Origin: Chitinivorax tropicus
GTDB lineage: Bacteria; Pseudomonadota; Gammaproteobacteria; Burkholderiales; SCOH01
Length of the DNA stretch: 64,000 bases
Direction: 5' to 3'
NCBI RefSeq assembly: GCF_014202905.1
Contig: NZ_JACHHY010000001.1
Coordinates: 124,001 to 188,000, forward strand
Translations under genes and position numbers: made by a program
Part shown: positions 19,998 to 49,445 of the stretch, in pieces
Layout: each line of letters opens with the position of its first letter
How positions within the stretch are numbered: position 1 is the first letter of the stretch
Notes under the pieces: generated by a model
Database searches by the model: none
The model's input: only the letters and a program-made list of their open reading frames with translations
What the model was told of the DNA's origin: nothing

Positions 19998-20843
19998 ATG
20001 CTGAGCTATCGCCATGCTTTCCATGCCGGCAACCATGCCGACGTCCTCAAACACTTGGTTCAAGTGCAACTGCTGAGCTATCTGAATCAAAAGGACAAAC
20101 CCTACTGGTATATCGACACCCATGCGGGTGCAGGCGTTTATTCGCTGCTGGATGGTTATGCGACCAAGAATGCGGAATTCCGTACCGGGATAGGCAGGCT
20201 GTGGGCACGCACCGATCTGCCTGCTGCTGTGGCCGAGTATGTGGCCGCCGTCAAGACGCTGAATCCACAGGGCAAGCTGGCTTTATACCCTGGCTCGCCA
20301 TGGCTGGCGCTGCAACTGATCCGCAGCCAGGATCGGCTGCGGCTGTTTGAATTGCACCCGACCGACGCGGACTTGTTGCAACGTAATTTTGCTGAGCATG
20401 CCAAGCGGGGCCAGATTCTGGTGGCCGATGGATTTGAAGGCATCAAGGCACTGCTGCCGACGCCATCTCGACGTGCGCTGACCCTGATCGACCCGCCTTA
20501 CGAGGACAAACGCGACTACCAGCACGTGGTGCACTGCTTGCAGGAGTCGCTCAAGCGCCAGGCGAATGGCGTGTACGCCATCTGGTATCCGAAGCTGCAG
20601 TTGGCGGCCTCACAGCAATTCGTCGATAAGCTCAAACGCCTGCCGATCGACAGCTGGCTACATGTCAGCCTGGACGTGCACCGCCCCCGTGCCGACGGCT
20701 TTGGCATGCATGGCAGCGGTATGTTCATCATCAACCCACCCTGGACATTACATCAGACCCTGCAGACGGTCATGCCCTGGTTGACCCACGAATTGGCACA
20801 AGATGACGGAGCCCAATATGCCCTTGAACAACAAACCAAATGA
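19998..20843 (+). CDS. rlmJ: 23S rRNA (adenine2030-N6)-methyltransferase RlmJ
   Basis: 281-residue SAM-dependent methyltransferase. The N-terminus MLSYRHAFHAGNHADVLKHL and the DTHAGAGVYSL SAM-binding loop are diagnostic of RlmJ (YhiR), and the catalytic N6-adenine motif appears as LIDPPYEDKRDY. It modifies A2030 of 23S rRNA, a non-essential housekeeping mark. Length equals the E. coli protein (280). Its last 26 bases overlap the start chosen for the asparaginase gene, suggesting co-transcription. Confidence 0.95.
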   Translation: MLSYRHAFHAGNHADVLKHLVQVQLLSYLNQKDKPYWYIDTHAGAGVYSLLDGYATKNAEFRTGIGRLWARTDLPAAVAEYVAAVKTLNPQGKLALYPGSPWLALQLIRSQDRLRLFELHPTDADLLQRNFAEHAKRGQILVADGFEGIKALLPTPSRRALTLIDPPYEDKRDYQHVVHCLQESLKRQANGVYAIWYPKLQLAASQQFVDKLKRLPIDSWLHVSLDVHRPRADGFGMHGSGMFIINPPWTLHQTLQTVMPWLTHELAQDDGAQYALEQQTK

Positions 20844-21792
20844 TCCGCCATTCGTGCTCGCCATCCACGGTGGAGCGGGGACGATACGGCGTCAGGATCT
20901 GACGCCTGATCAAGAGGCGGCCCTGCTGGCCGGATTGCATGCCGCATTGGATGCTGGACAAGCCATTCTCGCACAGCGAGGTAGTGCGCTGGACGCCGTG
21001 ATCGCTGCTGTTTCCGCCCTGGAAGACAATCCCCTGTTCAATGCAGGCCGAGGCGCCGTCTTCAACGATGAAGGGCGGATCGAGCTGGAAGCTGCCGTCA
21101 TGAACGGCCCGGATCAGGCTGCTGGCAGTGTGACAGGGGTGACGCGCACCCGCAATCCGGTCCAATTGGCGCGGGCCGTCATGCAGCATACTGCCCATGT
21201 CACACTGGGCTTTGATGCAGCAGATCGCTTGGCGCTCACCTTGGGCTTGCCACAGGGAGATGCCGATTATTTCTACACCGCCAAGCGCTGGCAGGCTTTG
21301 CAGGATGAGCTGGCCAGGATGGCAGCGGGCGGCAGCGAGGCCGATGCGCCTGAAGACCGTAAGCATGGCACCGTCGGCGCCGTGGCGCTGGATTGCATGG
21401 GCCGCCTGGCTGCCGCCACCTCAACCGGTGGTCGTACCGCCAAGATGGCGGGTCGCATTGGTGACACCCCGGTCATCGGCGCGGGCACCTGGGCCGACAC
21501 GCGCTGTGCGGTCTCCGGCACTGGGCATGGTGAATACTTTGTCCGCGCCGCAGTCGCCCACGACATCGCCGCCCGCATCCACTATGGCGCCCAACCCCTC
21601 GCGCAGGCAAGCCAGGCCACCATCGACACCCTGACCGCGATGGGCGGTACTGGCGGCGTCATTGCAATCGACCACCACGGCAACATCGCGATGCCCTTCA
21701 ACTGTGAAGGCATGTACCGAGCGGCTATCGATCAACAGGGCCAACGGACAGTGGCTATCTATCGGGACGGATCTGCCCCAGCCACTGCTTGA
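20818..21792 (+). CDS. iaaA: Plant-type L-asparaginase / isoaspartyl peptidase
   Basis: 324 residues from the ATG at 20818, which has GGAG six to seven bases upstream; an in-frame ATG at 20803 is less well placed. It belongs to the Ntn-hydrolase asparaginase 2 family: FVLAIHGGAGTI at the N-terminus, NPLFNAGRGAVF, and the autocleavage site HGTVGAVALD, where Thr185 becomes the N-terminal nucleophile (Thr179 in E. coli IaaA). The second conserved loop TSTGGRTAKMAGRIGDTPVIGAGT is also present. It degrades isoaspartyl dipeptides and asparagine in the cytoplasm. The proenzyme length is normal. Confidence 0.95.
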   Translation: MPLNNKPNDPPFVLAIHGGAGTIRRQDLTPDQEAALLAGLHAALDAGQAILAQRGSALDAVIAAVSALEDNPLFNAGRGAVFNDEGRIELEAAVMNGPDQAAGSVTGVTRTRNPVQLARAVMQHTAHVTLGFDAADRLALTLGLPQGDADYFYTAKRWQALQDELARMAAGGSEADAPEDRKHGTVGAVALDCMGRLAAATSTGGRTAKMAGRIGDTPVIGAGTWADTRCAVSGTGHGEYFVRAAVAHDIAARIHYGAQPLAQASQATIDTLTAMGGTGGVIAIDHHGNIAMPFNCEGMYRAAIDQQGQRTVAIYRDGSAPATA

Positions 21793-24198: not shown

Positions 24199-25467
24199 AT
24201 GAATCGCGCCACCGAAACCAGCCCTCCCCGCTCGCTATTACCGATCTCCCGCCATCGGATGATCGGCTTCTGCGTGCTGCTGGCGCTGTTCGAATGGATC
24301 ACTTATGTCGGGAGTGATCTGGTCATGCCCGCCATGCTGGATGTGGTGGCAGATCTGCATGCCACGCCCCAGCATGTGCCGACAGCATTGAATGCGTATC
24401 TGCTGGGTGGGGTGGCGTTTCAATGGCTGATCGGGCCGCTGGCTGATCGCTTCGGACGCCGCCCTGTTCTGCTGGCAGGCGTGCTGTTGTTTGCGGTGTC
24501 TTTTCTGATCACACCGGCCATTACCCACATCCAGGCATTTAATCTGCTGCGCTTTGTGCAGGGTGTGGGGCTCGGGTTTGTGGTGGTGGTCAGCTATCCC
24601 ATCCTGCAGGAAGCCTTTCATGAAACGGACGCGGTCCGCCTGATGGCATTGCTGGCCAATATTGCACTGCTATCGCCCCTGCTGGGCCCATTGATGGGTG
24701 GCGTCCTGTTGAATTGGCTGAGCTGGCGTGAGCTGTTCATCAGTATCGGTGGGCTGGCGCTATTGGTGATGGTGGGTTTGTGGCGTTATCTGCCGGAAAC
24801 CATTGGCGTGCGCAGAACCGATGGCACGATGTTGCAACCCGTGCCGCTCTGCCTGCGGGACATGGCTGGTAACTACCTGCGGCTGCTACGCCAGCCCCGC
24901 TTCATGCAAGGCAGCCTGGCTCTGGGCTTGTTGAGCGTGCCACTGATCGCCTGGATCGGCATTGCCCCGGTATTAATGATGGAACACGCGGGCTGGTCGA
25001 TGATGAGCTATGGGCTGGGGCAGCTGCCGATCTTCGGCGGCTTGATCATCGGCAATCTGGCCTTGCATCAGCTGGCTGGTAAATACGCTTTACCGCAGCT
25101 GATCAGATACGCCTGCTGGCCCATCCTGGCGGGCCTGATTGGGGGCTGGCTGGCAGCCCTCGGCGGCGGCGGCCTGCCCACCTTGCTGGTGAGCCTGTCT
25201 CTGTATGCCTTTGGGATGGGCATCTGCAATGCATCGTTGTACCGACTGACGCTGTTTGCCGATGATGGCGCAAAAGGCTCAGTCGCCGCCATGCTGGGCA
25301 TGGTATCAGTCGCCACCATTGGCCTGGGAAGCAGCTTGCTGGCACACCTGGGCGCAGGTGACAGCCCTGCTGCCTTTGTCAGCGGGGCCTTGCTGGCAGC
25401 CAGTCTGGCGCTGCCCCTGCTCTGGCGCCTGTTGAAACCAGCCCCCTTGGCCATGGCCAGCCCCTAG
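24199..25467 (+). CDS. MdfA-like MFS multidrug exporter
   Basis: 422 residues with 12 hydrophobic helices, major facilitator superfamily, DHA1 (drug:H+ antiporter) group. The acidic residue in the first helix (ALFEWITYVGSDLVMPAM) and the loop motif GPLADRFGRRPVLLAG are the signatures; the first-helix ending resembles MdfA/Cmr. The Glu in helix 1 is the MdfA substrate and proton site. It lies 126 bases before the lux-like operon on the same strand; it may be an independent gene or may export that operon's product. Substrate is not predictable. Confidence 0.85.
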   Translation: MNRATETSPPRSLLPISRHRMIGFCVLLALFEWITYVGSDLVMPAMLDVVADLHATPQHVPTALNAYLLGGVAFQWLIGPLADRFGRRPVLLAGVLLFAVSFLITPAITHIQAFNLLRFVQGVGLGFVVVVSYPILQEAFHETDAVRLMALLANIALLSPLLGPLMGGVLLNWLSWRELFISIGGLALLVMVGLWRYLPETIGVRRTDGTMLQPVPLCLRDMAGNYLRLLRQPRFMQGSLALGLLSVPLIAWIGIAPVLMMEHAGWSMMSYGLGQLPIFGGLIIGNLALHQLAGKYALPQLIRYACWPILAGLIGGWLAALGGGGLPTLLVSLSLYAFGMGICNASLYRLTLFADDGAKGSVAAMLGMVSVATIGLGSSLLAHLGAGDSPAAFVSGALLAASLALPLLWRLLKPAPLAMASP

Positions 25468-25593
25468 CCACCAAATAGCCGCTGACAGCGTGTATGGCGG
25501 CTGATCTCCCTTGACCGACCCATCCACGGACTGGCCCATGCCAGCGCCGACGGGCCACTTTTCGCCCAAATGAACTGCAAACAGGAGTACACC

Positions 25594-26724
25594 ATGCATG
25601 ACTTCCCCGCCGTGGATGCATTCTGCGGAATCGACAACCCCTATCGACACGATGCGGAAACCGATGGCCTGTTCGATGCTGCGATGCGGGAGCTGGTGGC
25701 CTACCATGGTCACGCCACCCCTGGCTATCGGCAATGGCTGGCAGCCAACGGTCTGACCATCGACGATGCGCTGGCGCTCAAGGATTGGTCGATGCTGCCG
25801 CCCATCTTTGCCAATTATTTCAAGCAGCAATTGGTGTTGAGCCCAGCTGGCGTGGATGCGCTGGAGTTGACCTCCTCGGGCACCAGCGGGCAAAAAAGCC
25901 GGATGCGCTACGACGCCCGCAGCCTCAGTGCGGCGCAGGCCATGGTGGATCGTATCTTCGCCCACTACGGCTGGGTCACCCCGGCCCAGCCCTGCAATTA
26001 TCTGCTGCTCAGCTACGAGCCCGCCGGGGCCGTCACACTTGGCACCACCTATACCGACCAGTTTCTGTGCAAATATGCGCCGGTGAACCGTGTGGTCTAC
26101 GCCTTGCGTCACAACGGACACGGTAATGAATTCGATCCGTTCGGCGTGATCCGGGCGCTGCAGGACTTTGCCGATGAAGCATTGCCGGTAAGGATCCTGG
26201 GTTTTCCCGCCTTCATGTGGTTCACCTTGGAACGCATGCAGGAGATGGGCCTCCCCGCCTTGTCGCTACACCCGGACTCGCTGGCGTTCTTTGGCGGCGG
26301 CTGGAAGACCCACGCGGACAAAGCCATCCCCAAAACCATGCTGTATCGGCGGCTGGGCGAACAGCTTGGCCTGCCCGATGCCCGCTGCCGAGACGGCTAC
26401 GGTGCCGTGGAGCATCCCGTTCCCTACATTGAGTGCCCCCACCACCGTTTCCATGTCCCAACCTACTCCCGCGCGGTCATCCGGCACCCGGCCACCCTGG
26501 TCAGGCAGCCCTATGGCGAAGCGGGCTTTCTGCAGTTCATCTCGCCCTACATCACCTCCAGCCCCGCGCACAGCGTGGTGATGAGCGACCTGGCCGTGCT
26601 GCATCCGGCCAGCACCTGCGGTTGCGGCCTGCAGACCGACTGGTTCGATCTGCTTGGCCGGGCGGGCACCAGCAAAGCCCGTAGCTGCGCATTGGCGGCA
26701 TCTGAATTGATCAAGGAGTCCTGA
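25594..26724 (+). CDS. LuxE-like acyl-protein synthetase
   Basis: 376 residues from the ATG at 25594, with AGGAG six bases upstream. It matches the LuxE (acyl-protein synthetase) family in length and architecture: P-loop-like LTSSGTSGQKSRMRYD (about residue 93), ILGFPAFMWF, FFGGGWKT, and DGYGAVEHPVPYIEC. Near the C-terminus Cys365 sits in RSCALAASEL, the position of the acyl-accepting Cys at about 362-364 of luminous-bacterium LuxE. The enzyme activates a carboxylic acid with ATP and holds it as a thioester for reduction by LuxC. The natural acyl chain here is unknown. There is no luxA, luxB or luxD nearby. It opens a four-gene operon; one base separates it from the next gene. Confidence 0.88.
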   Translation: MHDFPAVDAFCGIDNPYRHDAETDGLFDAAMRELVAYHGHATPGYRQWLAANGLTIDDALALKDWSMLPPIFANYFKQQLVLSPAGVDALELTSSGTSGQKSRMRYDARSLSAAQAMVDRIFAHYGWVTPAQPCNYLLLSYEPAGAVTLGTTYTDQFLCKYAPVNRVVYALRHNGHGNEFDPFGVIRALQDFADEALPVRILGFPAFMWFTLERMQEMGLPALSLHPDSLAFFGGGWKTHADKAIPKTMLYRRLGEQLGLPDARCRDGYGAVEHPVPYIECPHHRFHVPTYSRAVIRHPATLVRQPYGEAGFLQFISPYITSSPAHSVVMSDLAVLHPASTCGCGLQTDWFDLLGRAGTSKARSCALAASELIKES

Positions 26725-26725
26725 T

Positions 26726-29185
26726 ATGCTTCTCACACACGGCACACTGGCCCCCCAAGCCGACCTCGAACACGTACTCGCTTCACTGGCCGAGCACCTG
26801 CCAGCCTTGCTGGCCAACCCACCGGCAGCTGATTTGGTGATCGAATGCGCTGCCCGTTTTGCCGATGCGCTTCAGCATGGCCAGACTGACTTGCCATTGG
26901 ACGAGGTAGCACGACAGGCGCTGATCGACTTTTGTCGCAAAGAGGCGCTGGAAACCAAGCTGCAACGCGAGCTGGGTGACGCGCCGTTCTCCTTGCGCCG
27001 CAACAGCTACACCAGCCAGCACTTCGAAAGCTGGCGCCCACTGGGCCTGGTGGTACATATCACCCCTGCCAATGCACCTTTGCTACCCTTTTTCGCGGTG
27101 CTGGAAAGCCTGCTGGTGGGCAATGTCAACTGGCTGCGCCCCAGCAGCAGCGATGACGGCCTGACCGCCCGCCTGCTGGCAGCCCTGCTGAGCCATGACC
27201 CAAGCGGCACCCTGGCCGAACAGATTGCCGTCATCCCCTGCCCCACTGCGCAATTGCCCAAGTTGTTCAAGTTGGCCGATGGCGTCTCTGCCTGGGGAGG
27301 AGATGCCGCGCTGGACAACATCAAGCAGCAAGTGCCGGCAGGTTGTCGTTGGATAGACTGGGGGCACCGCATCAGCTTTGCCTATGTCGTTCCGGGGGCA
27401 GCCAGCGATGCCGACTTGGCCGCGCTGGCCGACGACGTGTGCCAACTCGATCAACAGGCCTGCTCCAGTCCGCAATGCGTGCTGGTCGACAGCGATGACC
27501 CGGCTACCCTGCGAGAGCTGGGCGAACGGCTGGCGCTGGCCATGGGTGCACGCTGCGCTGTCTGGCAAGGGCTTACGCCTACCCGACAAGAGGCTGCTGA
27601 AATCGCCACTCGGCTCAACCTGACTTGGTTGTCATACAGCTTTGCCGAGGTCGTCGGGCACACCTGGGTGGGTGAAGGCTGGCGCATTCTCTGGTCGCAC
27701 CGGCCCGAGCTGGCGCCATCACCCTTGTTCCGGACCATTCTGCTTCGCCCCCTCCCCCGCCAGCATCTATCCCAGGTGTTGCAACCCTGGCGCACCCGTC
27801 TGCAGACCTGCGGCCTGGTAGCCGACGCCATCGATCAGGCTGCGCTGGCCCGTCAGTTGCTGGCGGCTGGCGTCACCCGGGTCGTCCCGCTGGGGCACAT
27901 GCATCAGAGCTATGACGGTGAACCGCATGATGGTGTCTATGCCCTGGCCCGACTGGCAAGGCGGGTGTCGGTCACCTTGGCGCACGGCGTCTTGCCAGGC
28001 CATGCCACGCTGGACCCCCTACCCCGGCAACCGACGCTCCCCGCTGGGCTGCCGATCATGTGCAAGACGGATTTCCAGGCGCTGCCGATGCAAGCCGACG
28101 CGCAGTTGTTCTTCCGCAGCGGCGGCAGCGGCGGGGCGCCCAAGCTGGCGGGCTTCAGCTATCGCGACTACCACCGCCAGATGCGCGCAGCAGCCGACGG
28201 CCTGTTCGCTGCCGGTCTGGACCCAGCCCAGGATCGGGTGATGAACCTGCTCTATGGCGGCAATCTTTATGGTGGCCTGCTGAGCTTCTTCAGCATTCTG
28301 GAGAAGCTGTCTGCGACCCATTTCCCGATGGGTGGGCCGCTGGATGAGGACTACAGCCAGATTGCCGACATGATCATCGCCCAGCGGGTGAATACGCTGA
28401 TCGGCATGCCCAGTACCATTCACAAGCTATTCGTCTGCGAGGCGGACCGATTGCGCGCTTACGGCGGTGTTGACAAGGTGCTGCTGGGTGGAGAGCAAAG
28501 CAATGCGGCGCAGCGGGCTTACCTGCAGAGCTTTGGTGTCAAGCAGATACGCTCAGCCATCTATGGCTCGGTGGACGCCGGGCCGCTGGGCCACGCCTGT
28601 CCACACAGCCCGGACGGCGTCTTCCACCTGCTGGCCGATACGCAATGGCTGGAAATTGTGGTGCAAGACGCTGACCAGGCCGTCACCGGCACTGAAATCG
28701 GGCGGCTGATCTTCACCTCCCGCGCTCGCGAAGGCCAACATGTCAATCGCTACGATCTGGGCGATGCTGGTCGTTGGGTACCTGGCCCCTGCCCCTGCGG
28801 GCTGCCCAGTCCCCGTTTTGAATTGACTGGCCGCCAAGGGCAATCATGGAGGCTGGGCACGGTGTTCTTCGACCCCAACACCCTGAGCAAGCAACTAGGC
28901 TACCCCTTGCAGTGCCTGATTGGGCACAACGACCTGGGCACCGAGATGCTGACGCTGCTGGTCGATGGCTCGCCCGATCACGCTCGATCTACCCTGATGG
29001 CCGACCCTTTGATCGCTGAGGCGATTGACATCGGTTTGTTGATATTGGACATCCAGGCCAGACCGATCGATCGATTCGAGCAACATCCGCAAAGCGGTAA
29101 AAGCCCGCTGGTGATCGATCGGCGGCAGCTGTCGCCCAACCAGGCGGCCACCACGCTGACCTCCGCAACCATTGCCCGGCCTTGA
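26726..29185 (+). CDS. LuxC-like acyl reductase fused to a PaaK-like adenylating domain
   Basis: 819 residues, with AAGGAG eight bases before the ATG. Residues 1-430 form a LuxC (acyl-CoA reductase, aldehyde-dehydrogenase-like) domain: PLGLVVHITPANAPLLPFF, the nucleotide-fold segment NVNWLRPSSSDDGL, and catalytic Cys246 in DQQACSSPQ. Residues 440-819 form an adenylate-forming domain like phenylacetate-CoA ligase: FFRSGGSGGAPKL (about 463), the A5-like AIYGSVDAGPLGHAC, and the ending QSGKSPLVIDRRQ (Lys about 790). So one polypeptide carries both an activation module and a reduction module. It would take an acid, activate it and hand it to the Cys for NADPH reduction to an aldehyde, with the LuxE partner. 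Such a fusion is unusual, since LuxC is normally about 480 residues and separate. Confidence 0.85.
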   Translation: MLLTHGTLAPQADLEHVLASLAEHLPALLANPPAADLVIECAARFADALQHGQTDLPLDEVARQALIDFCRKEALETKLQRELGDAPFSLRRNSYTSQHFESWRPLGLVVHITPANAPLLPFFAVLESLLVGNVNWLRPSSSDDGLTARLLAALLSHDPSGTLAEQIAVIPCPTAQLPKLFKLADGVSAWGGDAALDNIKQQVPAGCRWIDWGHRISFAYVVPGAASDADLAALADDVCQLDQQACSSPQCVLVDSDDPATLRELGERLALAMGARCAVWQGLTPTRQEAAEIATRLNLTWLSYSFAEVVGHTWVGEGWRILWSHRPELAPSPLFRTILLRPLPRQHLSQVLQPWRTRLQTCGLVADAIDQAALARQLLAAGVTRVVPLGHMHQSYDGEPHDGVYALARLARRVSVTLAHGVLPGHATLDPLPRQPTLPAGLPIMCKTDFQALPMQADAQLFFRSGGSGGAPKLAGFSYRDYHRQMRAAADGLFAAGLDPAQDRVMNLLYGGNLYGGLLSFFSILEKLSATHFPMGGPLDEDYSQIADMIIAQRVNTLIGMPSTIHKLFVCEADRLRAYGGVDKVLLGGEQSNAAQRAYLQSFGVKQIRSAIYGSVDAGPLGHACPHSPDGVFHLLADTQWLEIVVQDADQAVTGTEIGRLIFTSRAREGQHVNRYDLGDAGRWVPGPCPCGLPSPRFELTGRQGQSWRLGTVFFDPNTLSKQLGYPLQCLIGHNDLGTEMLTLLVDGSPDHARSTLMADPLIAEAIDIGLLILDIQARPIDRFEQHPQSGKSPLVIDRRQLSPNQAATTLTSATIARP

Positions 29186-29237
29186 CCCGAGCCACTGTCA
29201 ACCACGCCTATTGTCGTCAATGAAGCAGGAACAAAAA

Positions 29238-30515
29238 ATGAATAGCCAACTGGAATCGATTGTGCAGCATGCCCGACAACATGCCCCCTATTTCCATCAA
29301 CACTATGCAGCATTACCCGCAGCAGGTTGGAGCCTGAGTGATCTGCCGATCATCGACCCAAGCCACTTCTGGGCAGGCTCGGACGACCTGGATCATTGGC
29401 CGGTATTGACCGCACACATACAAGATGGCCATGTGTTCAAGACCGGTGGCTCAACCAGCGAGGGCAAGCTGTCGATCTATACCCGCGAAGAGTGGCAGGC
29501 ATTCATCCACACCTTCAGCCAGGCCATGAGCAGCCGCCTGCAGCCCGGAGACAGAGTGGCGAACCTGTTCTACGCGGGCGATCTGTACACCAGCTTTCTG
29601 TTCATCCATGACGCCTTGAACCACTCACCGGTACCAGTGTGTGAATATCCGTTCACCGGCGCGGTTGACCACGCCGTTTTGGCGAATGCCATCCGGCAAT
29701 ATGACATCAACGTGCTGGCCTGCGTGCCCGCGCAATTGATGAAATTCGCCCACTGGCTGAGCCAGGCCGGGATACAGCTCCCCCAGATACGCACCATTCT
29801 GTATGGCGGAGAGAGCCTGTTCGACGACCAGCGCCCATTGCTGGCGCGTGATTTCCCCAATGCCACCATTGCTTCGATCGGCTGCGCCAGCGTCGATGCT
29901 GGCCTGATCGGTGCCAGCCTGCCCGACTGCCAGCCAGGTGAGCATCGCTGCTTTGATGGCGAAACCCTGATCGAGATCATCGATGAAACCACGGGCCAAC
30001 CCATCACCGAGCCTGGCCAGATCGGCCTGCTGGTGGTGACCAGCCTGCAACGACGACTGATGCCGATACTCCGCTACCCAACCGGTGACCAGGCCTGCTG
30101 GCGGGAGCCGGCAGGCACGCCAAACCGCAAATTCGTGCTGCATGGCCGGGCCGGGCAAGGGCACCGTATCCGTGTCGGCACCTTATCGCTGTTTCCAGCA
30201 CAGATCGATGAGGCATTGCACCAGGCCATTGGTCAGGTCGCCTGGCAGTTGGTCATCGACCGCATCGACTGCCAGGATCGCCTGACACTGTGCCTTGCCC
30301 ATGATGATCAAGCAGCATCAGCCGACCCGGCTGCGCTCGCCGCATTCTTGCAGCAATCGATCTGTGGTTTGGGCGAAGCATGCGAATCCGGTCAGCTCCG
30401 CTTTCATATCCAACATCTGTCGAGCGATTCAATGCAGACCCACGAACGATCCGGCAAATTATTGAAAGTGGTGGATCGCCGCCAGTATCAAGACAAGATG
30501 GAGCGCCCAGCATGA
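29238..30515 (+). CDS. PaaK-like adenylate-forming protein
   Basis: 425 residues from the ATG at 29238 (MNSQLESIVQHARQHAPYF; AGGA eight bases upstream); ATG 29220 is an alternative. It is a phenylacetate-CoA-ligase-like member of the adenylate-forming family: FKTGGSTSEGKLSIYTREE (about residue 68), an ILYGGESLF segment, ASIGCASVDAGLIG and the C-terminal SGKLLKVVDRRQ. This C-terminal signature is nearly the same as the one closing the preceding fusion protein (SGKSPLVIDRRQ), so the two adenylating units look like duplicates that have diverged. The substrate acid is unknown. The stop overlaps the GNAT start (ATGA). Confidence 0.82.
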   Translation: MNSQLESIVQHARQHAPYFHQHYAALPAAGWSLSDLPIIDPSHFWAGSDDLDHWPVLTAHIQDGHVFKTGGSTSEGKLSIYTREEWQAFIHTFSQAMSSRLQPGDRVANLFYAGDLYTSFLFIHDALNHSPVPVCEYPFTGAVDHAVLANAIRQYDINVLACVPAQLMKFAHWLSQAGIQLPQIRTILYGGESLFDDQRPLLARDFPNATIASIGCASVDAGLIGASLPDCQPGEHRCFDGETLIEIIDETTGQPITEPGQIGLLVVTSLQRRLMPILRYPTGDQACWREPAGTPNRKFVLHGRAGQGHRIRVGTLSLFPAQIDEALHQAIGQVAWQLVIDRIDCQDRLTLCLAHDDQAASADPAALAAFLQQSICGLGEACESGQLRFHIQHLSSDSMQTHERSGKLLKVVDRRQYQDKMERPA

Positions 30516-31447
30516 CCACCCTCCCCCCATGCCAACTGACCGTCAGGTCATTTGTCGATACCGATGCTGACGGTGTCAGCCAGCTTTTCCGCACAGTGTA
30601 TGGTGACTGTTATGTCTACCCGGATGTCTATCTGCCCAGCATGATCCGCCGCAATAACGCCTCGCACCTGTGGCACTCTGCTGTTGCCGAATTCGGGCAA
30701 CAGATTGTGGGCCATGCTGTGCTATGGTGCGATGCCACTGCGCCCGATCACGCTGAATTCGCCTTGAATGTGGTACACCCCGCCGCACGCGGCCATGGCA
30801 TCGCCACGCAGCTGGCCCAATATCTGTGCGAGCATGCTCGGCAAGCGGGCCTGAGCATGTTGACCATCAAGGAAGTCTCATCACACAGCCAAAGCCAACG
30901 GCTGGCCAGCAAGCTGGGCTTTCAGACAACCGCCCTGATGATGGACTATGTGGACTCCCCTTTTGGCAACAAATACCGGGAAAGCATTGTGCTGGGCTGC
31001 CTGCCGATCAAGCCACATCCCATTCCCGATGTGGCGTGGCCTGCCGCATGGCAGAGCTGGCTTGCACCCATGATCAGGCAATTTGGGAGCGGCCCAGCCC
31101 CGGTGCTGGAGGAGGTGGTGCCTCCGCTGGCGATCACCAATACTGACCATCGCTGTGATGTCATGCTGCACAAGATGTGCCCCACCTTGGTGCATGAAAT
31201 CGCCTGCCTGCCCGCTGATTGGTTGATCTATCTGCAACTTGCGCTCTCGGCGCAAACCCCGCCGATGATGCTGCAACTGCAACAGGCGGGCTTTAGCTGT
31301 GCAGGCTTGGTGCCTGGCCCGGCGCAGCGCTGGCATGCGTTGATGATCCGTGGTCATCACGCCCACGAGCTGGATCTGCGCTGCCCAACGGCCAGGGCCT
31401 TGCTGGAAAGCGAGCAGGCAGGGGCCCGGGAGACTGCGCTCTGCTGA
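30512..31447 (+). CDS. GNAT-family N-acetyltransferase with an unknown C-terminal domain
   Basis: 311 residues overlapping the upstream stop by four bases. Residues 1-160 form a GNAT domain, with VRSFVDTDADGVSQLF at the start and the acetyl-CoA-binding motif LNVVHPAARGHGIATQLAQYL. The second half, from about residue 165 (PIKPHPIPDVAWPAAWQSW), has no recognised motif. The fourth and last gene of the lux-like operon, it likely acylates an amine or hydroxyl in the same pathway. Its stop codon directly abuts the stop codon of the opposite-strand radical SAM gene (31448), with no base between. Confidence 0.82.
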   Translation: MTTLPPCQLTVRSFVDTDADGVSQLFRTVYGDCYVYPDVYLPSMIRRNNASHLWHSAVAEFGQQIVGHAVLWCDATAPDHAEFALNVVHPAARGHGIATQLAQYLCEHARQAGLSMLTIKEVSSHSQSQRLASKLGFQTTALMMDYVDSPFGNKYRESIVLGCLPIKPHPIPDVAWPAAWQSWLAPMIRQFGSGPAPVLEEVVPPLAITNTDHRCDVMLHKMCPTLVHEIACLPADWLIYLQLALSAQTPPMMLQLQQAGFSCAGLVPGPAQRWHALMIRGHHAHELDLRCPTARALLESEQAGARETALC

Positions 31448-32353
31448 TCAGGGGTGGCCCTGCGGCGCAGTCGCCACCCAGCCCACTGGGCGCTGCCATC
31501 GAAAATACAGAGGCACCCGGCCCAGCGCGCCCCAGCCGAATTCAGCAGCAAAGGGTTGGTCGTGACGATGCACATAGCCGATGTAGCAATCACAGACTGG
31601 ATTGGGGCAGGGCTTGGTACGCAGCCGCGCTGCCCAGTCATGTTGGTAGAGGTTGCCCAATGGCTCGTTGACGAAATGACAAGGCCGCAGGTTGCCCGCG
31701 CCATCGACGGACAATGCACTCTCTCCCGCCCGACAAGCCACGCCCAGGCTGGGGGGCGGGCTCAGATTGTGTTCGAACCAGGGGTCGATCTGCCGCAACC
31801 AAGCCGCTTCGTGCGCCTGGTAATAATCACGGCCTTCGTCCCAGTACGCATTCACCCACAGGTAGGTGGTCGCAGGCAGGGCCAGCCGCATATCAGCAAT
31901 GGCGGGAAAAAACGCGCGAATCCCCACCATGCCAATGCTATGTGGCACCTGCAAGGCTGTCAGCCGGGCTACCCGCGCCAGAAAGCGGGCACTGGGGGTC
32001 TGGTCGGGGTGGAAGGTGCACCATAGCGACACCTTGCTTGGCGGCGCATCCACCAACCAGTCAGGCATCACCGACAGATTGGTCTGGATGGCCACCCGCT
32101 GTACTTGTGGCATGGCCGCCAGCGTAAGCAGGGCTTCGCGGTAGTATCGACGGGTCAACGCCTCGCCCCAAGGCGTGAACAGAATCGACAGCTGATGCTG
32201 CGCCTGTTGCCCCGCCCATTCGACAAAACGTGTCAGATCGGCGGCATCCTGCAGCAAAGTGGCGCGGGTGTCCCGACGCTTGGCAAAGGGACAATAGCTG
32301 CAATCATAGTTGCAGCTGGCCAGCCGCCCACGATACATCAGATTCAATTGCAT
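31448..32353 (-). CDS. STM4011 family radical SAM protein
   Basis: 301 residues. The radical SAM cluster motif is CNYDCSYC (CX3CX2C) near the N-terminus after MQLNLMYRGRLAS; further cysteines near the C-terminus (LRPCHF, CPNPVCDCYIG) may bind an auxiliary cluster. Together with the four genes upstream it forms the STM4011-STM4015 cassette first seen in Salmonella, for which no biochemical function is established. It would generate a 5'-deoxyadenosyl radical to modify a partner molecule or peptide. Last gene of its operon; 33 bases after the STM4012 gene. No precursor peptide is obvious near it. Confidence 0.85.
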   Translation of the reverse strand: MQLNLMYRGRLASCNYDCSYCPFAKRRDTRATLLQDAADLTRFVEWAGQQAQHQLSILFTPWGEALTRRYYREALLTLAAMPQVQRVAIQTNLSVMPDWLVDAPPSKVSLWCTFHPDQTPSARFLARVARLTALQVPHSIGMVGIRAFFPAIADMRLALPATTYLWVNAYWDEGRDYYQAHEAAWLRQIDPWFEHNLSPPPSLGVACRAGESALSVDGAGNLRPCHFVNEPLGNLYQHDWAARLRTKPCPNPVCDCYIGYVHRHDQPFAAEFGWGALGRVPLYFRWQRPVGWVATAPQGHP

Positions 32354-32386
32354 GACCCGCCCATGCTGTCAGCCGCCCCGCTGACG

Positions 32387-33748
32387 CTAGGCCAGCTCAT
32401 ATTGTTGCATCCTTGCCCGAACCGCATCAGAGATCAATGCAGGACCGATGCTGTCCGACAAGGCCAGCCCGGCCTCGGTCAGGCTCAGCCAGTCGCCTTG
32501 CTGGCTGAGCAGTTGATGCTCACGCAGCTGATCCAGCAACGGGATGTCAGCCCAGGCATCCGCACCATCAAAACGCGCTGCGTAATCGCTCAGGCTGAGG
32601 CCGGGGCGGATCAGCAGCGATTGGATGACAAAGCGGCGTTTGCGTTCGGTTGCATCCAGCTCGATGCCGTAATGTGCCTGCGTGAACCATTCCTCTTGCC
32701 GATCACAATAGTGTTCGATGATGTCCCGGGTCGATTGCCGCCCCACGGCATATTCAGTCGAATAGTGCAGCTGTCGCGTATAGGATCGGGCACCGCTCCC
32801 CAGCCCCACCATGCCATCCGCCTGACAACAGTAGATCGGCGCAGGTTTGCCTGGCGCATGGGGCAGTTTGAACATGCGCATCGAACATTGCTGATAGCCC
32901 GCCGCCAGCAAAACGGCCTGCCCGGCCCGGTACAACTCGGCCCGGTTGTCCGCCTGCCCTTGTTGAATGACGAATTGCGGATAGCGCCCGGCGTGCCGTT
33001 GCTGGATCACACCCAGCCCGGTCAGGTCGCGCACATAAAGCGGGTAGAGGTAGATCTCCTCTGGCATCCAGCGCAGCGCCTGCCGGATGGATGCAGCAAA
33101 GCTGGCAGCAGTCTGGTTGGGGATGCCATAGATCAGGTCCAGATTCAATGTCGCGATCCCTGCCTGGCGGATGGCATCCAGCGCCTGGCTGACCACAGTG
33201 TTCAGCTGGGGGCGGATCAACGCATCCGTCTCGGTGCGCAAAAAGCTCTGGATGCCAATGCTGACCCGATCCACCCCAGCCTGGGCCAGCAGGCTGAGTT
33301 TCTCGTCGGTCAGGGTTTCGGGGGACACCTCCACCGAAGCAGGGGTGGTAGCCATGTCCAACTGGAAATGCCGCTGGGCCGACTCCAATAGCTGAGCCAG
33401 CTGCTGAGCCGACAGATAGGTAGGTGTGCCCCCCCCAATGGCAAAACGTGCGATCCGATGCGGGCCCAGCGCGGCAGCCACCTGCCGCATCTGGCGCTGC
33501 ATGGCATCCACATATCGCATGGGCAGGCTGGCATTGGGCTTGGCCAACGTGAACAGATTACAAAAACCACAGCGCATTTCACAGAACGGAATATGCAGGT
33601 AGAGAAACAGCGCATCACGCTTCTCCTCCGCCCACAACGGCGCCAGGGGAAGGGGCGTCGAAAAGGGGCGGTAGGCCGTCTTGTGCGGGTAGGAGTAGGA
33701 GTAGGCCTGATAGGGTGTGGCCAGCCAGGGCATGGTGATATCGTTCAT
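32387..33748 (-). CDS. STM4012 family radical SAM protein (HemN-like)
   Basis: 453 residues. The N-terminus carries the diagnostic YSYSYPHKTAYRPF, then the cluster motif IPFCEMRCGFC (CX3CX2C) and the HemN-type FAIGGGTPTYLS. The C-terminal region is also HemN-like. HemN relatives do radical decarboxylation or methylation; STM4012 itself has not been assigned a reaction. Start overlaps the preceding gene's stop by four bases (ATGA), so translation is coupled. It is one of two different radical SAM enzymes in the five-gene cassette. Confidence 0.88.
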   Translation of the reverse strand: MNDITMPWLATPYQAYSYSYPHKTAYRPFSTPLPLAPLWAEEKRDALFLYLHIPFCEMRCGFCNLFTLAKPNASLPMRYVDAMQRQMRQVAAALGPHRIARFAIGGGTPTYLSAQQLAQLLESAQRHFQLDMATTPASVEVSPETLTDEKLSLLAQAGVDRVSIGIQSFLRTETDALIRPQLNTVVSQALDAIRQAGIATLNLDLIYGIPNQTAASFAASIRQALRWMPEEIYLYPLYVRDLTGLGVIQQRHAGRYPQFVIQQGQADNRAELYRAGQAVLLAAGYQQCSMRMFKLPHAPGKPAPIYCCQADGMVGLGSGARSYTRQLHYSTEYAVGRQSTRDIIEHYCDRQEEWFTQAHYGIELDATERKRRFVIQSLLIRPGLSLSDYAARFDGADAWADIPLLDQLREHQLLSQQGDWLSLTEAGLALSDSIGPALISDAVRARMQQYELA

Positions 33749-34548
33749 ATCCGCCCCGGGATCAGGAATTCGGCGTAGGGCACCTCCCAGACCACCGGGT
33801 GGCCGATCCGATGACCATCGTAGCCATCTTCGCCATAGGCGGTGCCATGATCAGCGCACAGGATGACGAACGCACCGCGCGCGGCCAGGGTATCGAACAG
33901 CGGTGCCAGCGCACCATCGACATAGGCCATGGCCGCCATATGGCTCTGTAGATCATCGCGCTCGCAACCCGGCACATAATGTCGGTTGGGCTGGTGCATG
34001 GCCGAGACATTGATGAACAGGAACGCTCGCCCCTGACAGGCCGCCAGATGGCGCTGCGCACAGGCCACCTGCTGTGTGGTCGAATCCGGCGCGGTGACGC
34101 CAAATGCAGGCGTCCATTCACTGACCTGGAACAACCCAGGCAAGACCCGCCCCAGCGGTGATGTCTTGTTGAAAAATCCAACCCCGCCGATGCAGATGGT
34201 CTGATACCCCCGCTGCGCCAAGCCAGACACGATATCAGGGGTCTCGAACACACAGGTGGTCGGCGCGGTGGTCTCGCTACCAGGGAAAGCCACCGCGAAA
34301 TGGCGTGGATGGCGCCCTGGCTGGGCGGGCGTCGGTAGAAAGCCCGCAAAGAATGCATGATGCGCCGCGTAGGTAAAGCTGCCGGGACTATGACGGCGCT
34401 CCCACCCAGTGGCAGGCAGGTAACGGGACAACACCGGCAGTCGCCCAGCCTGGAACAGGCTCTGCGCCGCATCGAAACGTAGCGTATCCAGCGTGATCAG
34501 GACGATATCGACCTCACCCACCAACTGGCGCATATTGAAAGCTGTCAT
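33745..34548 (-). CDS. STM4013/SEN3800 family hydrolase (sulfatase-like)
   Basis: 267 residues of the alkaline phosphatase/sulfatase superfamily. Metal-binding segments DIVLITLDTLRFDAA near the N-terminus and LCADHGTAYGEDGYDGHRIGHP near the C-terminus supply the Asp/His ligands. There is no signal peptide, so it is cytoplasmic, unlike most sulfatases. The conserved Cys/Ser of true sulfatases (CxPSR) is not visible, so a phosphatase or phosphodiesterase activity is as likely. It is the third gene of the STM401x cassette. Reaction not known. Confidence 0.85.
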   Translation of the reverse strand: MTAFNMRQLVGEVDIVLITLDTLRFDAAQSLFQAGRLPVLSRYLPATGWERRHSPGSFTYAAHHAFFAGFLPTPAQPGRHPRHFAVAFPGSETTAPTTCVFETPDIVSGLAQRGYQTICIGGVGFFNKTSPLGRVLPGLFQVSEWTPAFGVTAPDSTTQQVACAQRHLAACQGRAFLFINVSAMHQPNRHYVPGCERDDLQSHMAAMAYVDGALAPLFDTLAARGAFVILCADHGTAYGEDGYDGHRIGHPVVWEVPYAEFLIPGRI

Positions 34549-34567
34549 GCGATTGCATCAAATCAGG

Positions 34568-35671
34568 TTACGGAATTGGAACAAGCTGCGCCGCCTTATG
34601 TGACAACAACGCAACCTCGGCTTGGTGGACAGTCTGGCCTTGCCAGGTCAGGCGGGGCAGCCAGTCGCCAAAGGCATTGACCTCCAGCACATGGCACTGC
34701 CGCGCCCCGACGATCAGATCGACACCCGCCAGCCAGGCATCTGGAAAGCACCCGGCAGCCTGGCTGGCCACCCGCTCCAAAGCAGCCACACGCGGCGCAT
34801 CGAGGCAATCCTCCACCGCACGGCGCTGGTTGCCCAGATGGAGATTGGTCAATGGGCTGCGCGACACCCGCGCCACACGGTGCAAAGGTGATTGGCCAAG
34901 ACACAGCACGCGCACATCGAATCGGCCACCCCCAGCTTGTGGCTTAGGCACCCATGCCTCGGCATACAGTGCATTCGGGGCCAGCGCGTCGATCAACGTC
35001 ACGACCGCTTGATCATGATAGCGGCGGATCTTCAGCGAATTGAACAGGCGCCCTGCCAAAGTCATCTCGACCGAAGTCGTCGCCACCCAGCGTGACCGGC
35101 CATCATGGGCCAGGGCCACCACGCCCGAGGCGGACGAGCCGTAGCGAGGCTTGACGAAGACCCGCCGCAATCCCTGTTGCAGCATCTGCGCTTGTAGCTG
35201 CGCGAACCCTCCCACCAAGCCCAACTGGTCGGGCACCGACAGCCCAGACGCCGCCAGCGCCTGCTGACAGGCCCACTTGTCACACATCGCCAGCACCGTG
35301 GTCGGCGGGTTCAGGCAACGCACCCATGGGCGGGCCTGCAAGGCTTGATCCAAGCCATGCAGATGGTGCTGAAACCCAGAGAACCACCACGCCTGATGGG
35401 CCAGCTCGCCATGCGCCAGCGCCGCAGGGCGAGCGGCACCTTGCAATGCCGCCCCTGTCGCAATCAAGTGATCCTGCACCCAGGCGTGCTCCCCAGGTGC
35501 CTCCAGCTTCAAAATGCAGGGCGAATCCAAGGCTTGCCACAGAGTCGCCGGGCGTGACAGCCAATCCTGATAAGACACCACCTGTGCCAGCGGCAGACCA
35601 GCCTCAGCCAATGCTGCCTGCAGGCTGGCTACACGTGGATGGGCGGGGTTGGCCAGCAACACCCACCTCAT
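34568..35671 (-). CDS. STM4014 family protein (ATP-grasp-like)
   Basis: 367 residues from the ATG at 35671, with GGAG upstream; a GTG two codons earlier is in frame. The middle shows VFVKPRYGSSASGVVAL, an ATP-grasp nucleotide-binding strand, and the C-terminal part has AGVDLIVGARQCHVLEVNAFGDWLP, where the EVNA acidic/Asn pair resembles the Mg-binding end of an ATP-grasp fold. ATP-grasp enzymes join a carboxylate to an amine or thiol using ATP. The role in the STM401x cassette is inferred; the family is assigned by context and sequence together. Confidence 0.83.
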   Translation of the reverse strand: MRWVLLANPAHPRVASLQAALAEAGLPLAQVVSYQDWLSRPATLWQALDSPCILKLEAPGEHAWVQDHLIATGAALQGAARPAALAHGELAHQAWWFSGFQHHLHGLDQALQARPWVRCLNPPTTVLAMCDKWACQQALAASGLSVPDQLGLVGGFAQLQAQMLQQGLRRVFVKPRYGSSASGVVALAHDGRSRWVATTSVEMTLAGRLFNSLKIRRYHDQAVVTLIDALAPNALYAEAWVPKPQAGGGRFDVRVLCLGQSPLHRVARVSRSPLTNLHLGNQRRAVEDCLDAPRVAALERVASQAAGCFPDAWLAGVDLIVGARQCHVLEVNAFGDWLPRLTWQGQTVHQAEVALLSHKAAQLVPIP

Positions 35672-35704
35672 ATCCACTCCACTACTGCCAGGGCCTGATG
35701 AAGG

Positions 35705-36622
35705 CTACTCCCCCACCGCCACATAGCGCCAATCGTCTTCGTCTGCTTCCAGCTGCTCATCGGCAATCACCTCGATAGGTAGCGACTGCAGCTTTTCCAT
35801 CCATTCATCGCTCATATAGTGATGCGAGACATCCAGCCGTTTCAGCTGTCGCACATAATCACTGGCGAACAAGGCTGCCGCCCCCGCATCGCCCAGCGTC
35901 CCCATTGACAAGTCCAGGGTATCGATTTCGGCAAGCCAAGGCTGTGATGCCACCCAAATCGCCACATCATCCGCAATATCAGCATCCTTCAAGCCCAGAT
36001 AGCGCAGGCGAGATGCATCCAGGGCCGTCAGCAGCTTTGCGTAATCATCCACTCCCCCATCAAAGCCATATTCGTCAGTACCCAACCACAGCTCCAAATG
36101 AGCCAGCCTGGGCAGACGTGACTGTGTCAGATTGTGAACGATCGCCACTGGCAGGCCGCCACACTCAATAGCCAATTCGCACAGGTTGGCATGCTCGAAA
36201 GGCGCGATCTCCAAACCATTCGAGCCTCTGATCCGCAGCACCTCCAGTGATGGAAAGGCATTCAGCAAAGGCTGATATGAGCCTTGGATGATCCAGGAGA
36301 TTTCACATTCTTCATAGGTGATGTCACCGATGAACAAGGCTCGCAACGCCGGCAGCGCATCACGGCGCTCGATCAGCAGATCGAGAACCGGTTGCGGAGA
36401 GGATTCATAGGCGTCCGTCCACATGCCAATGATCAGCGAATCGAGTTTGCTGGTTTCCACTTGATCGAGAAACGAAGTCAACAGATCCAACAAGCTCCGC
36501 TCATCATCGTATTCGGTGGCAATCCGATAGACATGCGTTTCAAGCGGCTGTAATGGCTTATCTGGCTGATAAGTCAGCACCCGCTTGCCGTAGAACGACT
36601 CCTGATGATCCCCGATGGTCAT
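35705..36622 (-). CDS. STM4015 family leucine-rich-repeat-like protein
   Basis: 305 residues from the ATG at 36622, which has AGGGAG five bases upstream; the frame is open further back but without a ribosome site. Regular LRR-like units run through the C-terminal two thirds, for example LPALRALFIGDI, FPSLEVLRIRG, LPRLAHLELWLG, SRLRYLGLKDADIADD, IDTLDLSMGTLGDAG and LKRLDVSHHYMSDE. The N-terminus (SFYGKRVLTYQ) is typical of the STM4015 family. It is the first gene of the five-gene cassette. It could be a docking scaffold or the protein that the two radical SAM enzymes act on; both are inference. Confidence 0.85.
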   Translation of the reverse strand: MTIGDHQESFYGKRVLTYQPDKPLQPLETHVYRIATEYDDERSLLDLLTSFLDQVETSKLDSLIIGMWTDAYESSPQPVLDLLIERRDALPALRALFIGDITYEECEISWIIQGSYQPLLNAFPSLEVLRIRGSNGLEIAPFEHANLCELAIECGGLPVAIVHNLTQSRLPRLAHLELWLGTDEYGFDGGVDDYAKLLTALDASRLRYLGLKDADIADDVAIWVASQPWLAEIDTLDLSMGTLGDAGAAALFASDYVRQLKRLDVSHHYMSDEWMEKLQSLPIEVIADEQLEADEDDWRYVAVGE

Positions 36623-37427
36623 GGCGCTCCCTTTATGTGATATGTAAAAGTCTGGATGCCGGGTGCTATTGACATGTTTCATGGCCCGCACCGAAACCAT
36701 GTCAACAACAGTCAAACCCCGCCAAGGTCGTCAGTCGGCATCCTTCAGGCAAACCACCCACATCGCAGGACAACTGCTTCATCTGCAAGGGAGGCATGAA
36801 ACGCACGGACGACCTATCACTGGCGCGAGGCTGAAAGCGGTCTCAAACTGGCTGGCAGTGTAGCAGAGCCCCGTGAAAACCACATTGTCATTCATGCTTT
36901 TTTTACAAAGACTCACAGATTGCACAGTGCAATATCGCTATTTCATCATTTGATAATTTTTTGATCGAATTATTTACTTACATTCGAAATTGCAAACTAT
37001 TCCATGTCCATGCAAAATTGCGCGCAGATCGAGCAAGCATCAGCCCGCCGAGGGCGAGCGCCATGCAAGTGTCGGAGTGTATATATGGTGTAAAGGGATG
37101 GTAGGTATTTCCAGCACGCCAGACCACCAGAAAAACCAGGCCGGCTAAACGCGGGCCATATCCTGCCAAAATGACTAATCAGGCGCCCGTAATCTCTGCT
37201 GAAACAACCCACCACCCGCACCAACCAATGAAAAAATGATTCCATTGGCGCAATTATTCACTCTTTTTTGGAAAAGGTTGCAAAATCATTTTAATCAAAT
37301 GACATATGCGTTAAAATGCAACCCGGACGCCACCCAATTCGGTGCGTGATCCGCTCCAAAATGGCCACCATCCTGCATCGCGGGGCCTTGCTTTCCACCA
37401 ACCCAGCCGATCCGCCAAGGGGACAAC
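36623..37427. other. 805-base gap upstream of the STM401x operon
   Basis: No protein-coding frame looks real: two short minus-strand frames (36978-37169 and 36997-37245) lack family features. The central part (36890-37000) is very AT-rich. A perfect palindrome ATTGCAC-A-GTGCAAT lies at 36919-36933 and could be an operator shared by the leftward STM4015 gene and the rightward binding-protein gene. A second AT-rich block lies near 37260-37315. No RNA gene is evident. Confidence 0.5.
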
Positions 37428-45275: not shown

Positions 45276-47306
45276 TTATCTGTTGAGCATTGCCAACTGC
45301 TGAGACAAATACTGCCCTGTCTTGCTGATGTTGGACAACATCACATCCAGCGCAGTAAATTGCGTCCGATATCGTTTCTCGGTATCGTCCAGTCGGCGGT
45401 TGAGTACTTCTCGCTGTTTACCGATATCCTTGACGGTCTGATTCAGACCGTCAGTCCGCGCAGCAATCGCACCTTTTGCCCCCAGGAACTCATCCAGCAG
45501 CTTGTCCAGCTGTGAAGCGAATCCACGGGAGAAGCTTATGGTACCGCGATCTGCATTCTCAGCGCCACCCGTCACCGTCACCGACAAACCCAGCGCAGCG
45601 CCGGAGCTGGCAGTCAGCTTCTGACCACTCCCGGTTGCTGCCGCACCACCGATGGTGCCCACGATGTCCGTGCCAGCTGTCGCAACCGGGCTGGCGCCAA
45701 AGAGTGCAGCAGCGTTGCCACTGACCGAGAAATTCGATGATGAACCGTATTGGTCGGACACCCCGGTCAGCGTGAAGCTGGTCGCATCCCCGGTGCCCGT
45801 GATGGCAACCTTGCTGCCGGCAAACGTGCTGTTACCATTGATTTTAGATTGGATTTCCGCAGCCAGCTCCGAAACACTGGCGTACGTCCCCGCGCCCAGC
45901 GTCAAGGTAGCGGCCTTGCCATTCAAGGTCACGGCCAATGAATCATTGACACCCGCAGTCACGGTCAGACCGCTGGTCACGGCACTGCCGACCAACTTGC
46001 CCTGGGTGGCCAGGCTGGTGACATTGACAGCATAGTTGCCCGCCTGGGTATACGCTGTTGATCCCTGATACTTGACCAGGCTATCGGTGGCATTGCCTGT
46101 TGCGGCAAACAGAGCCGTCACATCGTTGAATTTACTATCGATGGCGGATTGCAGCTTGGCTGAATCCACCTTCAATGTACCGTCTTTCTGGAAAGCGATT
46201 CCCACCTTGCCCAGCGAATTGACTGAGCTGTCCACGCCTGCCACCACAGTGCCGAACATCTGCCGCAAGCGGAATTGCATGCTTCGCACTGTCGAGTCAC
46301 CTTGCAGCGGCGCGGATTTTCCCGCTGTGCCACCCGCTTTCGCACCACTACCATCATAGGCGGTGGCATCATCCAGCAATTTGTTCAGATCATTGTAGGC
46401 TTTGACAAAGGCATTGACCGCAGTGCCCAGTGAGCTACCACTATTGGATACCGTGATCTTGGCGGGCGAACCGACATTGGTCTTCAGCAGGTTCAGTGTC
46501 ACGCCCTCTATGGCATCGGTGATCGAGGTGCTGGATTTACTGATAGCAACACCGTCGATCTTCAATTCACTGTTCTGAGCCGTGACGGTCTCCTGCAATG
46601 CCTGACCTGTATTGGAGGCAGGGTCATGTGCCAACAGGTTTTGCAGCGCCGTGTCACCGGCCACGCTGATCTTGACGCTATTGCTCGCGCCTGGGTTGCT
46701 GGATGCCAATGCCAGGCGATAAGGGGTGCCGCTGCCATCATTGATGATCGAGGCAGTCACGCCGATGTTGGCTTTGTTGATTGCATCACGAATGCCTTCC
46801 AGGCTGTTGTTGGATGCATCGATGGTCACGGATTTGGTCGCATTGCCATTGGATGCAAACGACGCCCCGGTATACTTGCCCGTGTTGGCATCGAATGTTC
46901 CACCACTGACAGTGCCAAAGCTGAATGTCAAGGTGCCATTGCCAATGACTGTATTTTTCGATGCCTGGCCTGCAGAGGCCAATTTTTGTGCCTGAGCGAG
47001 CTTGGTCACCTCGATATTATAGTTGCCCAACGCGGCCCCAGCCGAAGCCGTCACTGTGATCGCCTCGCTGTTGGATGAATTAGCAGATTTACTGGCCTGG
47101 AATTTACTGGCATCCGCCAAGCCCCGCACAGCGGATTGCAGCGCCGCCATAGCGCCCTTGACCGTACCAAAGGCAGACAGCTTCGCCTGCACCCCGATCT
47201 CTTTGGTAGCCAAGACTGTCAGCGGCTCTTTCTCAGCCTGCATCAGCTTGGTGATGAGGGTGTTGACATCCAGTCCGGAGCCAACACCGGGCGATGCGAT
47301 AGCCAT
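45276..47306 (-). CDS. fliD: Flagellar filament cap protein FliD
   Basis: 676 residues from the ATG at 47306, preceded by AAGGAG seven bases away; a start 8 codons earlier has no ribosome site. N-terminal FliD signature: SPGVGSGLDVNTLITKLMQAEK; C-terminal helices: QLDKLLDEFLGAKGAIAARTDGLNQTVKDI and QFTALDVMLSNISKTGQYL. The large middle (Ser/Thr/Ala/Gly-rich, beta-type) is the variable outer region, longer than the E. coli FliD of 468. FliD caps the filament tip and catalyses flagellin assembly. Confidence 0.95.
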   Translation of the reverse strand: MAIASPGVGSGLDVNTLITKLMQAEKEPLTVLATKEIGVQAKLSAFGTVKGAMAALQSAVRGLADASKFQASKSANSSNSEAITVTASAGAALGNYNIEVTKLAQAQKLASAGQASKNTVIGNGTLTFSFGTVSGGTFDANTGKYTGASFASNGNATKSVTIDASNNSLEGIRDAINKANIGVTASIINDGSGTPYRLALASSNPGASNSVKISVAGDTALQNLLAHDPASNTGQALQETVTAQNSELKIDGVAISKSSTSITDAIEGVTLNLLKTNVGSPAKITVSNSGSSLGTAVNAFVKAYNDLNKLLDDATAYDGSGAKAGGTAGKSAPLQGDSTVRSMQFRLRQMFGTVVAGVDSSVNSLGKVGIAFQKDGTLKVDSAKLQSAIDSKFNDVTALFAATGNATDSLVKYQGSTAYTQAGNYAVNVTSLATQGKLVGSAVTSGLTVTAGVNDSLAVTLNGKAATLTLGAGTYASVSELAAEIQSKINGNSTFAGSKVAITGTGDATSFTLTGVSDQYGSSSNFSVSGNAAALFGASPVATAGTDIVGTIGGAAATGSGQKLTASSGAALGLSVTVTGGAENADRGTISFSRGFASQLDKLLDEFLGAKGAIAARTDGLNQTVKDIGKQREVLNRRLDDTEKRYRTQFTALDVMLSNISKTGQYLSQQLAMLNR

Positions 47307-47360
47307 GGTATTCTCCTTGGGTTGATCCACATGATCCTGGCCGGCTAAGCCGATGCCTGA

Positions 47361-47762: not shown

Positions 47763-47786
47763 GGTTTCACTCCTTTACGGCACAAA

Positions 47787-47811
47787 GCCCGACCGGGTAA
47801 ACCGGTCGGGC
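47787..47811 (-). terminator. Terminator hairpin between fliC and flaG
   Basis: A perfect 10-bp stem, GCCCGACCGG and CCGGTCGGGC, with loop GTAAA on the plus strand. On the minus strand it is followed by TTTG, a short U-rich end, 25 bases after the fliC stop. It would give a monocistronic fliC message, with partial read-through to flaG. Confidence 0.7.
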
Positions 47812-47835
47812 ACGATGATGTTATGCGCTATCGAC

Positions 47836-49429: not shown

Positions 49430-49445
49430 GTGATAAACCCAAAAA

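Follow-up and report, generated by a model that had tools for sequence, protein, structure and literature searches.

What do LuxC- and LuxE-like proteins make when they stand together with ligases instead of a luciferase? The question is raised by four co-oriented genes at positions 25594-31447 (+ strand, 5,854 bp) of a 64,000-nucleotide stretch of the Chitinivorax tropicus genome, hereafter the window (contig NZ_JACHHY010000001.1, positions 124,001 to 188,000). In order, these genes encode a LuxE-like protein, a LuxC-type reductase fused to a PaaK-like adenylating domain, a second PaaK-like protein and an acetyltransferase of the GNAT family. An earlier model-made reading of the same DNA, from its letters alone (the sequence-only reading), named them its best candidate for an undescribed system. 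We conclude that they very probably form, together with a gene for an MFS exporter, a leupABCD operon, which would make leupeptin (Ac-Leu-Leu-argininal) or a close analogue. Leupeptin, a small peptide aldehyde, is a protease inhibitor.

What ties the genes to leupeptin is a pair of published primers. In excerpts of PMC8283571, leupABCD of the Klebsiella strain CAV1374 lies at 315,353-321,183 with a transporter adjacent, and the primers leupA_f and leupB_r give a product of 1,235 bp. Among the relatives of the window's operon is a locus of K. michiganensis DSM 25444 (L079), which leupA_f matches with 0 mismatches at 8924-8944 (+), inside the LuxE-like gene, and leupB_r, again with 0 mismatches, at 10139-10158 (-), inside the LuxC-PaaK gene. 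The pair spans 1,235 bp, the published product size, and 0 of 100 shuffles gave a chance match for either primer. This locus has the same five genes as the window in the same order, with identities of 55% (MFS), 71% (LuxE), 53% (LuxC part), 59% (adenylating part), 51% (PaaK) and 44% (GNAT), and the four-gene span of 5,854 bp in the window compares with 5,831 bp for the published leupABCD.

Work on three genera connects these genes with their product, as far as the available excerpts of the papers go. Two products of the Klebsiella leup operon are leupeptin, observed at 427.3002 where 427.3027 is expected, and an analogue with Lys; a delta-leup strain has reduced yersiniabactin, and leup-derived pyrazinones are described, including a homoarginine pyrazinone (PMC11480411). 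Leupeptin of Xenorhabdus bovienii is said to be made without a non-ribosomal peptide synthetase (NRPS), by separate AMP-dependent ligases and a reductase (PMC11212599, citing Li et al. 2020), and a region of Photorhabdus khanii is typed 'Leupeptin' (PMC12542766). The window agrees with the Xenorhabdus account in showing a LuxE/PaaK/LuxC set of ligases and reductase instead of an NRPS. In fact, leupABCD of K. michiganensis, Xenorhabdus and Photorhabdus share with it the four genes, their order, the fusion and the cysteines, and the Klebsiella locus also the adjacent transporter; the window differs in its host and in a LeupB that is 53-60% identical to theirs. With published leupA and leupB primers fitting the DSM 25444 locus exactly, and the leup operon tied to leupeptin in these genera, the system can no longer be called undescribed. 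It is a known protease-inhibitor pathway in a new host, outside the groups where the pathway was worked out, and the exporter is now added to the operon. Among the literature matches listed, a coverage from which subscription papers are mostly absent, none deals with leup clusters of this host group.

The layout drawn by the sequence-only reading holds in coordinates, strand and spacing: 1 base separates leupA from leupB and 52 bases separate leupB from leupC, and leupC and leupD overlap in an ATGA at 30512-30515. Its domain assignments hold as well. LeupA (25594-26724, +; a second in-frame ATG lies further upstream, at 25570) is a LuxE-like acyl-AMP ligase/acyl-protein thioester enzyme of 376 residues (PF04443, E=2e-18), whose acceptor Cys365 is present within a conserved RSCA stretch near the protein end. 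LeupB (26726-29185, +) is the fusion of 819 residues, in which the LuxC part spans residues 35-413 (PF05893, E=3.5e-114) and carries Cys246 in QQACSSPQ, which has DQQACFSTQ as its aligned counterpart in the solved LuxC structure 7xc6, and the adenylating part covers roughly residues 450-800 and includes Lys792. LeupC (29238-30515, +; 425 residues) is a PaaK-like ligase and the proposed amide-bond former. Both adenylating parts match PF00501 below its curated cut-off; among PaaK models, NF045666 is the best match of each (E=7.9e-18 for the LeupB part and 5e-28 for LeupC, also below cut-off); solved PaaK ligases in the PDB are matched at E=1.9e-9 and 2.8e-14, respectively. LeupD (30512-31447, +; 311 residues) is a GNAT N-acetyltransferase (PF00583, E=1.5e-13) with an extra C-terminal domain. 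Its AlphaFold2 model, built on an alignment of 15 sequences, reaches a predicted local distance difference test score (pLDDT) of 88.9 and matches YncA and phosphinothricin-type acetyltransferases over about 170 of the 311 residues; the rest is without an assigned structural match.

A fifth co-oriented gene lies 5' of leupA, at 24199-25467 (+). It encodes an MdfA-like MFS protein (PF07690 over cut-off; MdfA subfamily model NF011931, E=9.2e-98, below curated cut-off) and is part of the leup operon, the counterpart of the transporter adjacent to the Klebsiella form. In the proteins of the cluster, neither a condensation domain nor a carrier-protein domain was found at E<=0.01. As a side observation on leupA, ARAGORN calls a tRNA-Arg (gcg) inside its coding sequence, at 26590-26663; since six related loci have no such call, this is probably a false positive.

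How widely is the arrangement kept? When one genome per species was scanned, 333 relatives were confirmed; the best-scoring 80 were retained, so that the counts lean towards close members. With four plasmid loci (L023-L026), and with L107 and L108, these 80 make 86 loci, or 87 alignment rows once the window is added (the GNAT rows are without L024-L026 and L108). The order LuxE, LuxC-PaaK, PaaK, GNAT on one strand recurs in 82 of the 86. The four exceptions are L108, cut by a contig end, and three streptomycete loci, in which the PaaK gene lies upstream and tblastn gave no GNAT match. A leupC-type gene is present at all 86 loci, and a GNAT gene follows it at 82. Cys246 and Lys792 of LeupB are kept in every one of the 87 rows, as is the TSSGT loop of the LuxE-like protein; Cys365 is kept in 86 (L077 has a gap there) and Lys407 of LeupC likewise in 86. 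Thus the discrete, conserved pathway that the sequence-only reading had postulated, activating acids and reducing one to an aldehyde, is borne out, and the gene order and the two cysteines, whose loss it had named as refuting, are kept in the numbers of loci and rows just given.

The exporter is less constant. An MFS match lies directly upstream of the LuxE gene at 65 of the 86 loci, 64 of them long (at least 352 residues) and one a remnant on a Salmonella plasmid. By the same test, 19 loci with enough flank are without it (15 from Xenorhabdus and Photorhabdus, unlike the window in this respect, three from streptomycetes and one from Pseudomonas), and a further two do not extend far enough for a verdict. 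The remnant, of 121 residues at 10467-10832, was noticed on the IncF plasmid CP054717 (L023, typed conjugative), where it stands beside leupABCD genes of normal length. Beyond the operon little is shared: when flanking frames of at least 90 residues were clustered across loci, no cluster was common to three or more genera, and because of this the leup operon looks like a self-contained cassette. Clusters common to two genera comprise a family that looks LysR-like by eye, found in the window and in 20 Pseudomonas entries, several shared by Xenorhabdus and one enterobacterial metagenome-assembled genome (MAG), several among streptomycetes, some of which are shadow frames, and a short frame on the Salmonella plasmid and in one Xenorhabdus, judged by eye to be transposase-like.

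The full fusion occurs in two genomes besides the window's own among 60 searched (G001, 69% identity; G025, 64%); among 369 genomes of its class (E<=1e-60), only the window's own carries it. With so few occurrences, the fusion is sporadic. A single LuxC match in the window's genome exceeds the family cut-off. The best 80 of the 333 relatives come from Pseudomonas, Xenorhabdus, Photorhabdus, Chromobacterium, Rugamonas, Iodobacter, Parachitinimonas, Burkholderia, Klebsiella, Erwinia and two enterobacterial MAGs. A plasmid search matched 38 records, six of them over at least 80% of the query, namely two from Salmonella and four from streptomycetes (two of the same strain). Viral contigs gave no relative, and complete E. 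coli genomes no match to the LuxE-fusion part of the Salmonella cassette. The survey depicts a sporadic, portable cassette, found in genomes of several proteobacterial genera and on Salmonella and streptomycete plasmids, and it supplies a list of loci in which to seek leupeptin analogues.

Where does the window fall among these loci? We built a LeupB tree from 34 of the 87 rows, picked by us for spread and midpoint-rooted for drawing. The window pairs with a same-genus relative (100/99) and is grouped with Iodobacter, Rugamonas and one further relative (86/88). The sister clade, joined at 88/89, holds Xenorhabdus, Photorhabdus, Chromobacterium, Burkholderia and one enterobacterial MAG; the next to attach is the Klebsiella clade (87/87), and the streptomycetes and all but one of the sampled Pseudomonas lie outside. 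Four rows have an unusual letter make-up, the window not among them. With moderate support, the window is thus flanked on either side by genera for which leupeptin work is published.

Several points weigh against the leupeptin reading. The window's LeupB is 53-60% identical to those of Klebsiella, Xenorhabdus and Photorhabdus, and the choice of residues could therefore differ; Lys and homoarginine analogues are in fact reported from other leup clusters in excerpts of PMC11480411. Support for the two branches on which the window's placement depends is moderate (87/87 and 88/89), and the three leupeptin genera do not form one clade in the tree (their label needs 2 changes, with 26 of 500 shuffles as low). 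Leupeptin production appears to be known for the genera, not for each species in the tree. The AlphaFold2 model of the fusion, from an alignment of 14 sequences, is poor (predicted TM score 0.38), was left unused and adds nothing.

Among the alternatives, the most probable is that the same machinery has a different main product, an N-acyl peptide aldehyde that resembles leupeptin but contains other residues, such as Lys or homoarginine where leupeptin has Arg. We consider this rather unlikely; it is a sub-case of the best explanation, and the two confidences overlap. The Lys analogue and the homoarginine pyrazinone speak for it, as does the fact that LeupC (51%) and the GNAT protein (44%) are the more divergent parts relative to Klebsiella, but the LuxE-like protein (71%) and the LuxC-PaaK fusion (53-59%) are well conserved in that comparison, and the LeupB tree puts the window among genera with leupeptin work.

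For leupeptin itself, a complete route can be proposed from the enzyme families. LeupD would first acetylate leucine with acetyl-CoA. Small acetyltransferases such as YncA and the phosphinothricin-type enzymes act on free amino-acid-like substrates, whose amino groups they acetylate, and the resemblance of LeupD to them would suit such a step. The sequence-only reading had the pathway acylate a partner; leucine N-acetylation is probably the better reading of this. LeupC and the PaaK-type C-terminal half of LeupB would then join acetyl-Leu, Leu and Arg through acyl-AMP intermediates, without a carrier protein, to give leupeptin acid, two PaaK-type units thus making two amide bonds. LeupA would use ATP to adenylate the peptide at its C-terminal arginine carboxylate and hold the peptide on Cys365, from which the LuxC half of LeupB would take it on Cys246 and, at the expense of NAD(P)H, form the aldehyde, to be exported by the MFS protein. 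The domain set fits such a stepwise, carrier-free peptide assembly. What the analysis shows is the gene set with its order and conservation, its catalytic residues and its orthology to published leup genes; the assignment of single steps to enzymes, and the product proposed for this strain, are inferred. The older enzymology of leupeptin has the same three stages: an enzyme making acetyl-leucine, a leupeptin acid synthetase and a reduction of the acid.

Could the operon instead supply a fatty aldehyde, as the luciferase-associated LuxC/LuxE reductase does? Membership of the LuxC and LuxE families suggests it, and the lux fatty-acid reductase shares with the window both domains and their acyl-carrying cysteines. 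In the window, however, LuxC is fused to an adenylating domain and accompanied by an extra ligase and a GNAT protein, constituents that relatives keep (PaaK-type gene at 86 of 86 loci, GNAT at 82 of 86), and LuxD, LuxA and LuxB are absent among the 10 proteins scanned at 24199-36715, as the sequence-only reading had noted. The scores fall far below the curated cut-offs, 55.9 against 550 bits for LuxE and 60.1 against 750 bits for LuxC, and the published leup work, in excerpts, leads to a peptide aldehyde (PMC11480411, PMC11212599). A luciferase-type pathway is therefore rejected, on its scores and the absent lux genes, as highly improbable. Searches of the general LuxC/LuxE literature did not bring up the operon by name, and a tropolone paper followed as a lead was discarded: the 'LuxC' in excerpts of PMC11481866 is a reporter plasmid.

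Recognition of the operon also removed one further candidate. The least probable alternative, an aromatic-acid reduction of the kind catalyzed by EhpF and EhpG, the PaaK/LuxC pair of D-alanylgriseoluteic acid synthesis, shows the same pairing of families, but no phenazine-type protein is found among those 10 scanned proteins and exact primer identity ties the operon to leup, and it was dropped once the leupeptin link was found.

Peptide aldehydes are also made by a different class of machinery. Antipain, MAPI and flavopeptin are protease-inhibiting peptide aldehydes made by NRPSs, according to excerpts of PMC10548850; they belong to the same product class as leupeptin, whereas the window's cluster is without condensation or carrier domains at the threshold given above. 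The streptomycete plasmid loci L024-L026 (Streptantibioticus cattleyicolor and Streptomyces spp.) combine the LuxE-like, LuxC-PaaK and PaaK-like genes as in the window, with fusions 41-44% identical to its own. The annotated L025 has the order PaaK, MFS, GNAT, LuxE, fusion, which differs from that of the window, and its GNAT protein is related to the window's at profile level only (E=4e-7, probability 93%; BLASTP E=0.62). It is a tentative possibility that the family extends past the gammaproteobacterial producers to these plasmids in function too, that some actinomycete leupeptin uses the carrier-free ligase-reductase route, and that divergent members such as the window's make analogues. Against such a route in actinomycetes, Streptomyces leupeptin is described as NRPS-made (PMC10548850) and the leupeptin of a Streptomyces isolate is ascribed to an antipain NRPS cluster (PMC11212599), each in the excerpts of these papers.

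Convergent with the leup operon, on the - strand at 31448-36715, lies a full STM4011-STM4012-STM4013-STM4014-STM4015 set of two radical SAM proteins, a hydrolase, an ATP-grasp-like protein and a fifth member, all of which score above their curated NCBIfam cut-offs. STM4011-STM4014 have no match beside the operon in the tabulated loci, in which STM4015 was not a query, and for this reason the set looks like an unrelated neighbour. In the same-genus genome, a relative of STM4012 lies on another contig, and the asparaginase-like neighbour (window 20803-21792) is found on the leup contig. Further along the window, at 45276-60274 on the - strand, FliD is followed by a glycosyltransferase/methyltransferase protein, a methyltransferase, a NeuB-family protein and a GNAT-domain protein, in what looks like a flagellin glycosylation island.

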